A stretch of 64,000 nt of DNA. Source: Alicyclobacillus sp. Lineage in GTDB: Bacteria > Bacillota > Bacilli > Alicyclobacillales > Alicyclobacillaceae. Below are positions 44,137 through 50,963 of this stretch, one piece after another. The notes below the pieces were generated by a model. The model worked only from the letters and a program-made list of their open reading frames with translations, made no database searches and was not told the DNA's origin. Position numbers and translations under genes: made by a program. Numbering within the stretch: the stretch's first letter is position 1; every line of letters begins with the position of its first letter. The stretch covers positions 1 through 64,000 of the forward strand of contig NZ_JAIMAV010000005.1 of NCBI RefSeq assembly GCF_023511815.1. The letters are read 5' to 3'.

Positions 44137-44233
44137 GCCGGTGAGCGCCGGTTGCACGGCGGACGCAAGGATGCGGGGCGAAAAGCCGAAGACAAGGTTT
44201 CCGGATTGAATATCCGATTTGGGAGGGATCACC

Positions 44234-45631
44234 ATGGCGAAGGTGCTGCCGGAACTGGAGGAGTACCAGTACGGATTTCGCGACCGGGACATCTCCATCG
44301 TGAAGTTCCAGAAGGGCCTGTCGCGCAAGGTCGTCGAGGAGATCTCGATGATGAAAAACGAGCCGGGGTGGATGACCGACTTCCGCCTGCGTGCGCTCGA
44401 CATCTTCTATCAGAAGCCGATGCCGACCTGGGGTGCGGATCTCGGCGAACTCGACTTTGACGACATCACGTACTACGTGAAGCCGACGGAGAAGAAGGGC
44501 AAGACCTGGGAGGAAGTTCCTCAGGAGATCAAGAACACGTTCGATCGCCTGGGCATTCCGGAGGCGGAGCAGAAGTTTCTGGCCGGGGTCTCGGCGCAGT
44601 ACGAGTCGGAGGTCGTGTACCACTCGATGCGCGCCGACCTGGAGAAGCTCGGGATTCTGTTCACCGACACCGACACGGCGCTGCGCGAGTACCCGGAGAT
44701 CTTCAAGGAGTACTTCGGGACCGTCATTCCGCCCGAGGACAATAAGTTCGCGGCGCTCAACAGCGCGGTCTGGTCGGGCGGCAGCTTCATCTATGTGCCG
44801 AAGGGCGTCAAGTGCGATGTGCCGCTGCAGGCGTACTTCCGCATCAATTCGGAGAACATGGGTCAGTTCGAGCGCACCCTGATCATCGCGGACGAGGACA
44901 GCTTCGTGCACTATGTCGAAGGTTGCACCGCGCCGATCTACAGCACCAACTCGCTGCACAGCGCCGTGGTGGAGATCATCGTCAAGGACCGGGCGCGCGT
45001 ACGCTACACGACCATTCAGAACTGGGCGCCGAACATCTACAATCTGGTGACCAAGCGCGCCGTGGCGCATCGGGATGCGACCATGGAGTGGGTCGACGGC
45101 AACATCGGATCGAAGGTGACCATGAAGTACCCGAGCGTGTACCTCATGGGCGAAGGTGCCAAGGGGATGGTGCTGTCCATCGCCGTGGCCGGCCGCAACC
45201 AGCATCAGGACACGGGGGCCAAGATGGTGCACATGGCGCCGAACACCACCTCGACCATCGTGTCCAAGTCCATCAGCAAGCACGGCGGCAAGACGACATA
45301 CCGCGGGCTGGCTAGCTTCGGGCCGAACGCGACCAACGCCAAGGCGAACGTCAAGTGCGACACCCTGATCCTCGACGATGATTCGACGTCCGACACCATC
45401 CCGTACAACGAGATCCGCAACGACGACGTCACCCTCGAGCACGAGGCGAGCGTGTCGAAGGTCAGCGAGGAGCAGCTGTTCTACCTGATGAGCCGCGGCA
45501 TCTCCGAGGAGGACGCGACGCGGATGATCGTCATGGGCTTCATCGAGCCGTTCACGCGCGAGCTGCCCATGGAGTACGCGGTCGAGATGAACCGGTTGAT
45601 CAAATTCGAGATGGAAGGGTCCATCGGCTGA
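44234..45631 (+). CDS. sufB: Fe-S cluster assembly protein SufB
   Basis: [101 protein letters not shown]. Confidence 0.97.
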
Positions 45632-45937
45632 ATGGCGTGGGTGAAGGTCGCCCGGGTGGACGAGGTTCCGCTCGGGCGGATGGTGAAGGTGACCGTCGAC
45701 GAGGACGATATCGCGGTGTACCATACAGAGGAAGGGATCTTTGCGACGTCGGACGTGTGCACACACGCAACCGCCTCGCTCTCGAGCGGGAAGCTGGACG
45801 GTTGCATCGTGACCTGCCCCAAGCACGGGGGGAAGTTCGACGTGCGGACCGGCGCGGCCGTGACGTTGCCGTGCGTGTTCCCCGTCGAAACGTTTCCGGT
45901 CGAGGTGCGCGGCGACGAGATTTGGTTGGATGTGTGA
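45632..45937 (+). CDS. Rieske-type non-heme [2Fe-2S] protein
   Basis: CTHATASLSSGKLDGCIVTCPKHGGKFDVRTG; start codon directly abuts the sufB stop. Confidence 0.92.
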   Translation: MAWVKVARVDEVPLGRMVKVTVDEDDIAVYHTEEGIFATSDVCTHATASLSSGKLDGCIVTCPKHGGKFDVRTGAAVTLPCVFPVETFPVEVRGDEIWLDV

Positions 45938-46060
45938 CGCACACCGGGCGGTCGCCCGGGTGGCCGCTGCCAATGCTGATCACGTGCACACGCGGATTCA
46001 GGCGAACTTCGCTCGGTCCTTTGCCGCGGTGGCCGGGGGCCGGGCCGTGACACTGGGGGT

Positions 46061-46513
46061 ATGGCCGTGAAGGTGTCGAGGCGGACGGAGTACGGCCTGC
46101 GCGCGATGGTGGCGTTGGCGGAATTGGCGGGGGACCGTCGACCGGTGTCGCTGCCCACCATCGCCGAGGCGGAGGGAATCCCGGAGCAGTTCTTGGATCA
46201 GATTGTGGCAAAGTTGCGCAGGGCGGGTTTTGTGAAGAGTGTGCGCGGCGTCAACGGCGGTTACCTGTTGGCGCGCCCGGCGGAGGAGATCTCCATCGGC
46301 GCGTTGGTGCGCCTTCTCGAAGGGTCGCTCGCACCCATCGAATGCATCGGGGAAGACGTGCGCGATCCCGGCGCCATCTGCGGCCGGGCTGGCGCCTGCC
46401 ACACCCGCAACGTGTGGTTGCGGGTGATGAACGCCCTGACGGACGCGTTGGACTCGTTGACGCTGGCGGACGTCATGCGCGACGAGGTGACGGTGCACGA
46501 GGCCGCACCCTGA
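46061..46513 (+). CDS. Rrf2 family transcriptional regulator
   Basis: VKVSRRTEYGLRAMVALAELAG...IAEAEGIPEQFLDQIVAKLRRAGFVKSVRGVNGGYLLARP; C...C...C ligand-like region CIGEDVRDPGAICGRAGACHTR. Confidence 0.93.
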   Translation: MAVKVSRRTEYGLRAMVALAELAGDRRPVSLPTIAEAEGIPEQFLDQIVAKLRRAGFVKSVRGVNGGYLLARPAEEISIGALVRLLEGSLAPIECIGEDVRDPGAICGRAGACHTRNVWLRVMNALTDALDSLTLADVMRDEVTVHEAAP

Positions 46514-46595
46514 CTTGATGCGGCGGTTTGTGCGAAGCGGATGCAAACCGACGTGCCGCTGACCACGGGTGGGCGGCACGCGGCCCCAAACGGAT

Positions 46596-46638
46596 AATAG
46601 CCCGGGTGGACAGGTCCAAGTCCACCCGGGCTATTTTC
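46596..46638 (+). terminator. perfect 16-bp-stem terminator (aatagcccgggtggac/gtccacccgggctatt)
   Basis: Perfect inverted repeat, 8-nt loop, A/T flanks; may act bidirectionally. Confidence 0.85.
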
Positions 46639-46730
46639 GCTGCCCGCGGTACCCGGTTTGCCGACCGAAGCCTCTGGCCGAGCGGGAGGACGCCCGCCCG
46701 GCCAAAGGCGACGCGGCGTTTTGGGAACCG

Positions 46731-47018
46731 TCAGTTGGCGTCGAAGCCGAGATCGATCTTCGGCAACTCCTGAATGCGCTGCACCGCGAGGCTGCGCTGC
46801 CGGCATGCCGCGACGTATTCGCGGTACACGGAGAGCAGCTGCGGGTGTTCGCGCAGCAACTGGTCATCCAGTCGGACGTGGTGCTCTTCGTGGTCGTACG
46901 CGAGGTGGTAGCTGGGGTTGTACCCCAGATCCCGCAACGTGTTCAGCAGGGCGGACAACAATTCATTCACACGGTGATGCGCGCGACTCCACTCCTCAGA
47001 CGACTGCATGAGGTCCAT
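46731..47018 (-). CDS. hypothetical protein, 95 aa
   Basis: Non-low-complexity ORF MDLMQSSEEWSRAHHRVNELLSALLNTLRDLGYNPSYHLAYDHEEHHVRL...; followed by the bidirectional terminator. Confidence 0.6.
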   Translation of the reverse strand: MDLMQSSEEWSRAHHRVNELLSALLNTLRDLGYNPSYHLAYDHEEHHVRLDDQLLREHPQLLSVYREYVAACRQRSLAVQRIQELPKIDLGFDAN

Positions 47019-47086
47019 CCCATTTCCCCCTTCCCTATGCAGAGCGCGGGTTTGGGCCTACTCCATCGCTTCGGGTTGGCGCAAAT

Positions 47087-47116
47087 TTGAAACGTGTCCT
47101 GCCTCCATAGTATAAT
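47087..47116 (+). promoter_or_regulatory. sigma-A type promoter for peroxiredoxin
   Basis: TTGAAA-N18-TATAAT. Confidence 0.65.
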
Positions 47117-47182
47117 CCTTCATGTGCTTCACCGCCAGTCGCAGCCAAAGTTCACCAGATACAGTCACGAGGAGGGAACGAT

Positions 47183-47722
47183 ATGCCACTCGTCGGTCAA
47201 CCCGCTCCCGATTTTGACATGCTGAGCACCAAGAACATGAAGACGTTGGACGAGCACGTCCGCCTGTCCGACTATCGGGGTAAGTGGTTGGTGATGTTCT
47301 TCTATCCGGCGGACTTCACGTTTGTCTGCCCGACCGAGATCATCGCCATGAACGAGCGTCTGCAGGAGTTCAAGGACCTGGACGCGGAGGTTCTGGGTGT
47401 CAGCTGTGACTCCGTGCACAGCCACAAGGCCTGGATCAACACCCCGCGTTCCGAGAACGGCCTGGGCGGTCTGGATTATCCGCTGGCGGCGGACTTCACC
47501 AAGGAGGTCGCGCGCAAGTACGACGTTTTGGTGGAGGAATCCGGACAAGCCCTGCGCGGGCTGTTCATCATCGACCCGGAGGGCATCCTGCGCTACCAGG
47601 TCGTGCACGACATGAACATCGGGCGCAGCGTCGATGAGACCCTGCGCGTGCTGGAGGCGCTCCAGGCGGGCGGCATGTGCCCGGCCAACTGGAAGCCCGG
47701 CGACAAGCTGTTGGAAGTCTGA
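47183..47722 (+). CDS. 2-Cys peroxiredoxin (AhpC/TSA family)
   Basis: FYPADFTFVCPTEI; C-terminal MCPANWKPG resolving Cys. Confidence 0.95.
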   Translation: MPLVGQPAPDFDMLSTKNMKTLDEHVRLSDYRGKWLVMFFYPADFTFVCPTEIIAMNERLQEFKDLDAEVLGVSCDSVHSHKAWINTPRSENGLGGLDYPLAADFTKEVARKYDVLVEESGQALRGLFIIDPEGILRYQVVHDMNIGRSVDETLRVLEALQAGGMCPANWKPGDKLLEV

Positions 47723-47902
47723 GCAGGCGGCCTGCCGAATGGCCGATTCAAGCGGCCGGCGGCGAAGGGCTCACGCCGGTGGCATCCGCCGGTGCGGCGC
47801 GAATCCTCCACGGGTTCGCGCCTTTTTCCCATCGGCGGCGTGATGCCATCCGCCAGGGCGGAGCGTCCGCGTGGGCCGAATTTCAGACGGGGGGATGATC
47901 CC

Positions 47903-48364
47903 ATGCCGATGCGGTTGGGCACGCCCATGCCGAGTTTGGAAGGCGCCACCGAGTGGTGGCACACGGACGGCGGGGCGCCGAAACTGGAACCTGGCAAGGT
48001 GACGCTGATTCACTTCTGGGCGGTGTCGTGCCACATCTGCCATGAGACGATGAACGACGTCATCGCCATCAAAGAGAAGTACGAGCCACAGGGCCTTCAG
48101 GTGGTGGCGCTGCACATGCCGCGCTACGAGGAGGACGCGGACGCCAAGCGGGTGAAGGAGGACGTGGAGACGTACCGGATCACGCAGCCGGTCGGATTGG
48201 ACCATCTGCACCGGATCGCCAACGCGTTTCAGAACGAGTACGTCCCGGCCTTCTTCGTGTTTGGGCGCGACGGAAATCTGATGTTCCGCGCCGCGGGCGA
48301 CAAGGGCTTTCAGAAGGTGGAACCGAAAATCCGGGAGGCGCTCGGGTTGCCGGCCGAGGCTTGA
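47903..48364 (+). CDS. TlpA-like thiol-disulfide oxidoreductase
   Basis: LIHFWAVSCHICHETMNDV (CxxC), cis-Pro YVPAFFVF. Confidence 0.85.
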   Translation: MPMRLGTPMPSLEGATEWWHTDGGAPKLEPGKVTLIHFWAVSCHICHETMNDVIAIKEKYEPQGLQVVALHMPRYEEDADAKRVKEDVETYRITQPVGLDHLHRIANAFQNEYVPAFFVFGRDGNLMFRAAGDKGFQKVEPKIREALGLPAEA

Positions 48365-48441: not shown

Positions 48442-48470
48442 TTGACATCCTCTCGCATATCTCGTACAAT
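48442..48470 (+). promoter_or_regulatory. consensus sigma-A promoter for fadR-etfBA
   Basis: TTGACA-N17-TACAAT. Confidence 0.8.
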
Positions 48471-48483
48471 GACGTCGTATAAA

Positions 48484-48501
48484 TGAATGACAATTCATTC
48501 A
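48484..48501. promoter_or_regulatory. FadR-type operator
   Basis: TGAATGA-CAAT-TCATTCA, perfect 7-bp arms matching the known Bacillus FadR box arms; directly downstream of the promoter. Confidence 0.85.
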
Positions 48502-48517
48502 GCGGGAGGGGCAGGGT

Positions 48518-49159
48518 ATCGCAAACCGGCGCGATGAAGCCAAGTATGACGCGATTCTGGCGGCAGCCGTCCAGGTCATGGCCGAGCACGGCTACCACCA
48601 CGCGCAGATCTCCCGCATCGCGCGGACGGCGGGTGTGGCGGATGGAACCGTGTATCTCTATTTCAAAAACAAGGAGGACATCCTGATCTCCTTGTTGCGG
48701 CAGGCCATCGGCCGCATCGTCGAAAAGCTCCAGCAACGGATCGCCGGCTTGGAACGGGCGGAGGATCAGCTGCGCGCGCTCGTCGAGCTGTATCTGCAGG
48801 AGCTCGGGGCCCATCCGCAGCTGGCGATGGTCACCCAGGTGCACCTTCGCCAGGTGGACGCGGGCATCCGGCGTGAAATCGGGGACATCATGAAACCGTT
48901 TTATCGTGCGCTCGACGACGTGATTGAGCTGGGCATGCGGCAGGGGGTGTTCCGGCCGAACATCAATCCGCGCATCGCCAGGCGGATGATCTTCGGGACG
49001 CTGGATGAGACGGTGACCGCGTGGGTGTTGCCGGGCGGCAAGTACGACCTGGCCAGTCTGGCGGAGGATGTCGTGGATGTGTTGTTGTACGGATTGTCCC
49101 GGACGCGGGCGGCGGAGGCACCCGGCCGCGGGGAGATCCCCCCGGCCGAGGTCATGTGA
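48518..49159 (+). CDS. fadR: TetR family regulator, FadR-like (start codon probably ATC at 48518)
   Basis: ANRRDEAKYDAILAAAVQVMAEHGYHHAQISRIARTAGVADGTVYLYFKNKEDILISLLRQ...RMIFGTLDETVTAWVL; GGGAGGGG 7 nt upstream of ATC; first ATG in frame (48578) would remove HTH helix 1. Confidence 0.85.
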   Translation: MANRRDEAKYDAILAAAVQVMAEHGYHHAQISRIARTAGVADGTVYLYFKNKEDILISLLRQAIGRIVEKLQQRIAGLERAEDQLRALVELYLQELGAHPQLAMVTQVHLRQVDAGIRREIGDIMKPFYRALDDVIELGMRQGVFRPNINPRIARRMIFGTLDETVTAWVLPGGKYDLASLAEDVVDVLLYGLSRTRAAEAPGRGEIPPAEVM

Positions 49160-49191: not shown

Positions 49192-49962
49192 GTGAACATT
49201 CTGGTGTGCTTGAAGCAGACGTTTGACACCGAGGAGCGCATCGTGGTCGAGAACGGCCGCGTGAAGGAGGACGGGGTCAAGTTCATCATCAACCCGTATG
49301 ACGAGTACGCGGTTGAGGAGGCGCTCCGCCTGAAGGAGGAACACGGCGGCGAGGTGACGGTGGTCTCCGTCGGCCCGTCGCGTTTCGAGGAAGCGATTCG
49401 CACCGCGCTCGCCATGGGCGCCGATGAGGGCATTCTCGCGGATGACCCGGCGCTGTTCGGCGACGAGTACACGGTGGCCAAGGTTTTGGCGGCCATCATC
49501 CGGCAACGGCCGTACGACATCATCCTCGCCGGCAACCAGGCGATTGACGATGGCTCCGGCCAGGTGGCGGTCCGTCTGGCGGAGGAACTCGGCATCCCGC
49601 ACATCTCGACCCTGACCAAATTGGTCGTGGAGGGCAACCAGGTCACGGGCTACCGCGACGCCGAAGGCGACGTGGAGGTGGTCCAGGGCACCCTTCCGGT
49701 GGTGGTCACCGCGCAGCAGGGGCTGAATGACCCGCGTTACCCGACCCTGATTGGCATCCGCAAGGCGAGCAAGAAACCCATCACGCGCGTGACGGCGGCG
49801 GACCTCGGCCTCAACCCGGACGACATCCGGCCGCGCACCAAGGTCGTGGACACGTTTCTGCCGAAGCCGAAGCAGGCGGGCAAGATCCTGCAGGGCGAGC
49901 TGCAGGACCAGGTCCGCGAGTTGATCCAGTCGCTGCGCACGGTCGACAAGGTCATTGGTTGA
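49192..49962 (+). CDS. etfB: electron transfer flavoprotein beta subunit
   Basis: VNILVCLKQTFDTEERIVV...INPYDEYAVEEALRLKEEHGGEVTVVSVG; AGNQAIDDGSGQVAVRLAEELGIPHISTLTKL. Confidence 0.96.
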   Translation: MNILVCLKQTFDTEERIVVENGRVKEDGVKFIINPYDEYAVEEALRLKEEHGGEVTVVSVGPSRFEEAIRTALAMGADEGILADDPALFGDEYTVAKVLAAIIRQRPYDIILAGNQAIDDGSGQVAVRLAEELGIPHISTLTKLVVEGNQVTGYRDAEGDVEVVQGTLPVVVTAQQGLNDPRYPTLIGIRKASKKPITRVTAADLGLNPDDIRPRTKVVDTFLPKPKQAGKILQGELQDQVRELIQSLRTVDKVIG

Positions 49963-49985: not shown

Positions 49986-50963
49986 ATGGCGAAGAATGTG
50001 TTGGTGTTGGCGGATGTCCGCCGGGGCAAGTTGCGCAATGTGACCTTCGAGATGCTCGGCGCGGCGCATCGCATCGCGGACGGGGGCGAGGTGTCGATCG
50101 CGATCCTCGGCCATGGAGTGGAGGCGCTGGCGGAGGGCCTCGGCGCCCACGGCGCGGACCGGGTGTTCGTGGTGGACGCGCCGGAGCTTGAACACTACAC
50201 GCCGGACGCCCACAGGAAGGCGTTCATGGAGTGCGTGCGCGCGGCGAATCCGGACATCCTGCTGTTCGCACACTCCGCGGTGGGCAAGGATCTGGCACCG
50301 GTCATCGCGACGCGGTTGGGCGCGGGCCAGGTGTCGGACGTGGTGGACATCGAGGGCACCGGGGACTCGCTGACGTTCACCCGGCCGATTTACGCCGGGA
50401 AGGCGTTCACCAAGGTCCAGGTCACCGAGGGGAAGGTGGTTGTCACCGTACGCCCGAACAACCTGACGCCGGCGGAGGGAGACCTCGGAAAAGCCGGTCA
50501 GGTGGAGAAGCTGGCGGTGAGCTTCGGGCCGCAGGATTTGGCGACGGTGGTCAAGGAGATCGTCCAGAAGACGACATCGGGCGTGGACCTCACGGAGGCG
50601 AAGATCATCGTCTCCGGCGGCCGCGGCGTCAAGAGCGCGGAAGGATTCAAGCCGTTGTACGAGCTGGCGGCGGTGCTCGGCGCCGCCGTCGGGGCGTCGC
50701 GCGGGGCCTGCGACGCGGGGTACTGCGATTACGCGTTGCAGATTGGGCAGACCGGCAAGGTTGTGACCCCGGATCTGTACATCGCCTGCGGCATCTCCGG
50801 CGCCATCCAGCATCTGGCCGGGATGTCCAACTCGAAGGTGATTGTCGCCATCAACAAGGACCCGGAGGCGCCGATCTTCCAGGTGGCGGACTACGGCATT
50901 GTGGGCGACCTGTTCGAAGTGGTCCCGATGATGACCGAGCTGCTCAAGAAGGAGTTGGCCTGA
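49986..50963 (+). CDS. etfA: electron transfer flavoprotein alpha subunit
   Basis: [40 protein letters not shown]...[29 protein letters not shown]. Confidence 0.96.

Follow-up and report, generated by a model that had tools for sequence, protein, structure and literature searches.

Where does translation of fadR begin in this Alicyclobacillus genome, when its reading frame offers no ATG, GTG or TTG ahead of the helix-turn-helix (HTH)? The gene lies in the window, the 64,000-nucleotide stretch of DNA that was analysed, and an earlier note had proposed ATC 48518 as the start codon. A reading of the codons from TGA 48488 to ATG 48578 (CAA TTC ATT CAG CGG GAG GGG CAG GGT ATC GCA AAC CGG CGC GAT GAA GCC AAG TAT GAC GCG ATT CTG GCG GCA GCC GTC CAG GTC) bore out the absence of a canonical start ahead of the HTH, and the rare-start candidates were exactly those that had been listed, i.e., ATT 48497, ATC 48518, ATT 48551 and CTG 48554. 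The first ATG, GTG or TTG after TGA 48488 is ATG 48578, and a start there would cost 20 residues, among them the start of HTH helix 1. The absence of canonical starts over about 30 codons is by itself not improbable. What goes beyond chance is the presence of conserved protein (TetR_N, NF053878) upstream of the first canonical start, together with ATC or ATT at the start site in 52 of 52 clade members. The coordinates of the locus are listed in Table 1.

Table 1. Features of the fadR locus (positions in the window)
Feature	Position	Strand	Basis
Sigma-70/sigma-A type promoter, TTGACA-17-TACAAT, 11/12 matches	48442..48470	+	promoter prediction
FadR-type operator TGAATGACAATTCATTCA, perfect palindrome, just 3' of the predicted transcription start	48484..48501	+	motif scan
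In-frame TGA, upstream end of the open fadR frame	48488..48490	+	frame reading
Shine-Dalgarno (SD) sequence CGGGAGGGG, anti-SD duplex of -10.8 kcal/mol, ATC 48518 at an aligned spacing of 8 nt	48503..48511	+	duplex energy
ATC start codon of fadR	48518..48520	+	ATC/ATT in 52/52 clade members
fadR, TetR-family fatty-acid metabolism repressor, 213 aa, ATC to TGA 49157-49159	48518..49159	+	profiles, PDB
ATG, first in-frame canonical codon (codon 21)	48578..48580	+	rejected as main start
etfB (electron transfer flavoprotein beta), starts with GTG 32 nt downstream of fadR, predicted on one transcript with it	49192..49962	+	
etfA (electron transfer flavoprotein alpha), start picked by eye at MAKNVLV	49986..50963	+	translation

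The protein read from ATC 48518 was assigned by profiles and structures. Two Pfam-type domains exceeded their cut-offs, PF00440 (TetR_N HTH) and PF08359 (TetR_C_4, the YsiA-like C-terminal ligand domain), and the best PDB relatives were 5gp9/5gpa and 1vi0/3whb. The FadR equivalog profile NF053878 (cut-off 200) gave 257.5 bits from the ATC versus 235.2 bits from ATG 48578. The TetR_N profile was covered from 1 to 45 with the ATC start, but only from 9 to 45 with the ATG start; its first 8 positions are gone and helix 1 is truncated, consistent with the damage to this helix that had been foreseen. A FadR box, TGAATGACAATTCATTCA at 48484-48501, is present in the promoter of the gene's own operon, and the 16 nt that had been counted from this operator to the ATC agree with its position. 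By analogy with B. subtilis FadR, the repressor would be released from DNA by long-chain acyl-CoA (PMC4525379).

The placement of the SD required one correction: the earlier note had set GGGAGGGG 7 nt before the ATC, but this element occupies 48504-48511 and the gap is 6 nt. The aligned SD spacing in Table 1 takes the final G of GGAGG as its starting point. As RNA, the operator folds into a 7-bp hairpin in the 5' leader and leaves the SD uncovered; no other structure that could mask or shape the fadR start was found in the leader fold (z = -0.63). A promoter layout like that of the window was seen upstream of most fadR orthologs. From fadR to etfA, the + strand showed neither a predicted promoter nor a predicted terminator. 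In the whole window genome, TGAATGACAATTCATTCA is the sole FadR box with at most one mismatch, and therefore the FadR regulon here may comprise little beyond its own operon. The FadR regulon of B. subtilis comprises five operons. Relatives with a perfect FadR box have one per genome, adjoining fadR except in genome G032. Since the box is unique per genome and adjoins fadR, the main circuit is probably the repression by FadR of its own operon, fadR-etfB-etfA. In G032 (the genome of locus L027) the sole perfect TGAATGAAAATTCATTCA box lies on contig C129:12342-12359, and fadR, on C133, has an imperfect box. The upstream neighbours in the window (44219-48364) were named from translations only; they include a sufB-like gene, a Rieske-type ferredoxin, an Rrf2-type regulator (46061-46513), a peroxiredoxin (47183-47722) and a thioredoxin-like protein ending at 48364.

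The search for FadRs covered 41 relatives, the entire order, its class and two more orders, in addition to 80 named loci. In the clade that contains the window gene, the codon at the start site is ATC in 47 and ATT in 5 of 52 genomes, which belong to six families and three orders (Alicyclobacillus-, Tumebacillus- and Kyrpidia-type). The ATT is found in four Kyrpidia-type genomes (f22; the name is an inferred one) and in A. contaminans. When a protein tree was computed with the start codon and the tail removed, a branch with support of 100/97 separated the 52 AUC/AUU FadRs from all others. FadRs outside the clade start canonically (ATG 69, TTG 19, GTG 8), at or beside the homologous position. 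The Brevibacillus- and Thermoactinomyces-type proteins begin MAKKTGEKY.., and those of the clade (I)AQKKNNEKY.. or (I)ANRRDEAKY..; because these N-termini align, a change from ATG to ATC is the likeliest origin of the codon. No relative was found in viral contigs. The comparison of start codons among orthologues, which had been put forward as a check, yielded no clade orthologue in which a canonical codon replaces the ATC. The assignment of the fadR start to ATC 48518 is strongly supported by the relatives. Selecting rows for ATC or ATT and then calling the codon invariant would be circular, and for this reason the rows were compared with the numbers of genomes. With 10 Alicyclobacillus genomes set aside, the 52 rows comprise every FadR found in the three orders (36 + 12 + 4 genomes). 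In nine of these ten, fadR starts with ATG and the protein branches with the FadR of Paenibacillaceae; in the tenth, G021, the gene is cut by the contig end and its start was left unscored. From its place in the tree, the ATG-start fadR of the nine genomes apparently stems from replacement of the gene, not from a reversion. This variant (L029, L157-L165) is A. acidocaldarius-like, with about 45% identity, and keeps the TGAATGA..TCATTCA box, which gives it the appearance of an in-place gene replacement.

The codon usage at the site distinguishes it from an internal isoleucine. Codon 1 is ATC, ATT and ATA in a ratio of 47 : 5 : 0, and six other conserved Ile columns of the alignment show about 140 : 142 : 10 (Fisher p = 2e-9, which is indicative only, the sequences being related). 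Because of this difference in ATC bias, codon 1 does not behave as an ordinary internal Ile codon. The triplet before it and codons 2-8 are variable in the alignment, so conservation in the start stretch is confined to codon 1. The spacing of the best anti-SD duplex to the ATC or ATT is 8 nt in 36 of the 52 rows and 7-9 nt in 46. In five rows the best predicted SD has a spacing of 3, because two overlapping G-rich SDs are present. The near-cognate codon is conserved at the proper distance from the SD. A canonical start that could give the full conserved protein is absent from the window and 17 other members, and in the rest the SD spacing of such codons mostly makes them unusable.

The same analysis was applied, as a positive control, to infC (IF3), the textbook case of a non-canonical start. 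This gene starts with ATC in the genus of the window and with ATT, ATA or ATC in relatives, with an SD spacing of 9 in nearly all and an SD geometry like that of fadR. The recovery of this ATC indicates that the method detects what is already known, and the host can evidently use AUC. Three of the infC genes (L206-L208, in G000, G002 and G001) read ATC AAA and have lost the AGC codon that follows the ATT of relatives. The other relatives have ATT, save one ATA (L198) and one ATC AGC (L217).

Several other explanations of the locus were considered. The window genome is in 165 contigs and single-base errors occur, so that the real sequence might have an ATG, or an indel might have cut off an upstream start. 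However, two independent genomes of the same genus (L002 and L003, one of them in 2 contigs) share the identical frame and the ATC, on which ground an indel or assembly error is excluded, and ATC or ATT is also found in complete and isolate genomes, among them A. fastidiosus DSM 17978, T. avium AR23208 and A. shizuokensis. No error of the kind that had been raised as a refutation fits these data, and such an origin is hardly conceivable; the retention of ATC/ATT in all 52 genomes marks a selected feature rather than a sequencing error. A start at ATG 48578, giving an N-terminally short FadR, would use the first canonical in-frame codon, and gene callers may pick it. It is nevertheless very improbable, as codon 21 is Ile in 16 of the 52 orthologs, the invariant residues K9, I13, L14, A17 and V20 lie ahead of it, and HTH helix 1 would be truncated. 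Alternatively, the ATC could be an internal Ile codon reached from an upstream in-frame ATG or GTG, by a programmed frameshift, or by reinitiation after a short ORF from the operator ATG 48483 or 48487. About two thirds of the relatives do have some canonical in-frame codon upstream (at -3, -6, -9 or -33), many of them a GTG/ATG at -9 or an ATG at -6 or -33, and the operator holds ATG codons in other frames. Against this, canonical in-frame codons are absent between -45 and +24 in 18 of the 52 genes, that of the window included, and the in-frame stop of L027, L145, L146 and L150 lies just 9 nt before the ATC. The nearest upstream ATG or GTG in relatives is mostly within or abutting the SD (spacing 0-1) or weakly paired; the codons at -9 and -6 have a spacing of 0-3 or a weak SD, the ATG at -6 in L004 (spacing 3) being a less clear exception. 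The ATC or ATT is retained even beside such codons, with an Ile codon choice that is atypical. L012 lacks an ORF, whatever the frame, that extends to the start site, which rules out entry by frameshift there; the layout of upstream ORFs is not conserved, and the ATGs in the operator are accounted for by FadR binding. We consider upstream entry of any of these kinds quite unlikely. In L153 and L154 an ATG stands directly before the ATC (ATGATCGCA) with an SD spacing of 5, which is well spaced; translation may start at this ATG in these two loci, and its position would be compatible with a recent regain of a canonical start.

The codon might also be a genuine start without regulatory meaning, i.e., an ancestral, nearly neutral change from AUG to AUC that was compensated by the strong SD and fixed by chance. 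Its confinement to a single clade, the strong SD and the occurrence of either C or T at the third base would suit this explanation. On the other hand, AUC returns to AUG by a single substitution, which is expected to raise the output greatly, and yet no member has AUG at the site, beside which two members may have gained an ATG at -3. The clade also branches deeply, with proteins down to about 50% identical. Fixation by chance therefore seems unlikely, though it deserves to be kept in mind. We regard it as highly probable that ATC 48518 is a genuine start codon of fadR with a single origin and maintenance by selection, with a mechanism acting on operon ratios that we infer. The parts of this explanation that are read from the sequences are the frame, the absence of canonical starts, the conservation of the codon, the placement of the SD and the confinement to one clade.

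In the proposed mechanism, the ribosome would bind the strong, well-spaced SD and initiate with fMet-tRNA at the near-cognate AUC, where the third-base mismatch would be disfavoured by IF3. A single event in the ancestor of the Alicyclobacillus-, Tumebacillus- and Kyrpidia-type orders would have given rise to the AUC, probably out of an AUG, and selection would have kept it since. The near-consensus promoter, autorepressed by FadR, would yield the fadR-etfB-etfA mRNA, from which poor AUC initiation would produce few FadR molecules, with EtfB and EtfA made from ordinary starts. The resulting low ratio of repressor to Etf would allow sensitive induction by acyl-CoA, and FadR synthesis might also be coupled to IF3 activity or growth state. 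By analogy with known weak starts, the AUC probably keeps FadR scarce; FadR need not be scarce, since the strong SD partly offsets the weak codon. Repression of fadR translation by IF3 is predicted from the codon alone. The selected effect would lie among a low level of FadR, the repressor/Etf ratio and IF3 coupling. It is a tentative and rather doubtful proposal that the AUC acts as a dedicated ancient control, lineage-wide and atop transcriptional autorepression, which makes FadR synthesis dependent on IF3 or growth state. If true, this control would link fatty-acid degradation and the supply of Etf to the fidelity of translation initiation. The conservation suggests that weak start codons can be conserved on purpose. 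Gene callers limited to ATG, GTG and TTG probably mis-start the FadR of this group. The gene lends itself to a simple test of whether the strength of the start codon determines the ratio of repressor to enzyme within an autoregulated operon.

A limited literature search found no report of a fadR with an AUC start, and no paper on the fadR start codon in Alicyclobacillus was found. To our knowledge, conserved starts other than AUG, GUG and UUG are few in bacteria (infC, pcnB, ccpN, cvfC1 and sigR), and a metabolic repressor with an AUC start joins this small class with an unusually deep conservation in a single clade. Like fadR, infC combines a conserved near-cognate AUN start (AUU/AUA/AUC) with a strong SD, but it encodes IF3 itself and hence has direct feedback, whereas fadR encodes a metabolic repressor with transcriptional autoregulation. 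The infC start of Streptomyces is likewise ATC (PMC5472188). In S. aureus, ccpN (AUA) and cvfC1 (AUU) give about 10% of the AUG output, and ccpN up to 30% in rich medium (PMC13009471). CcpN resembles FadR in that it represses transcription in central metabolism and that its gene has a non-canonical start, conserved also in B. subtilis, with a strong SD (PMC13009471); it differs in protein family and pathway, in the use of AUA instead of AUC, and in having been shown experimentally. The GUC start of Streptomyces sigR fixes the ratio of regulator to partner, is repressed by IF3 and is misannotated in genomes (PMC5472188). Here too a non-canonical start is on the regulator that leads an operon and bears on its stoichiometry with a downstream gene (PMC5472188), although sigR belongs to a sigma/anti-sigma pair and GUC departs from AUG at the first base too. 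A further comparison is with B. subtilis FadR (YsiA), a homologous repressor (1vi0, 3whb) with a similar FadR box and cotranscribed etfB-etfA, in the operon lcfA-fadR-fadB-etfB-etfA (PMC4525379). The difference lies in the start codon, for which the FadRs outside the clade use ATG, TTG or GTG.
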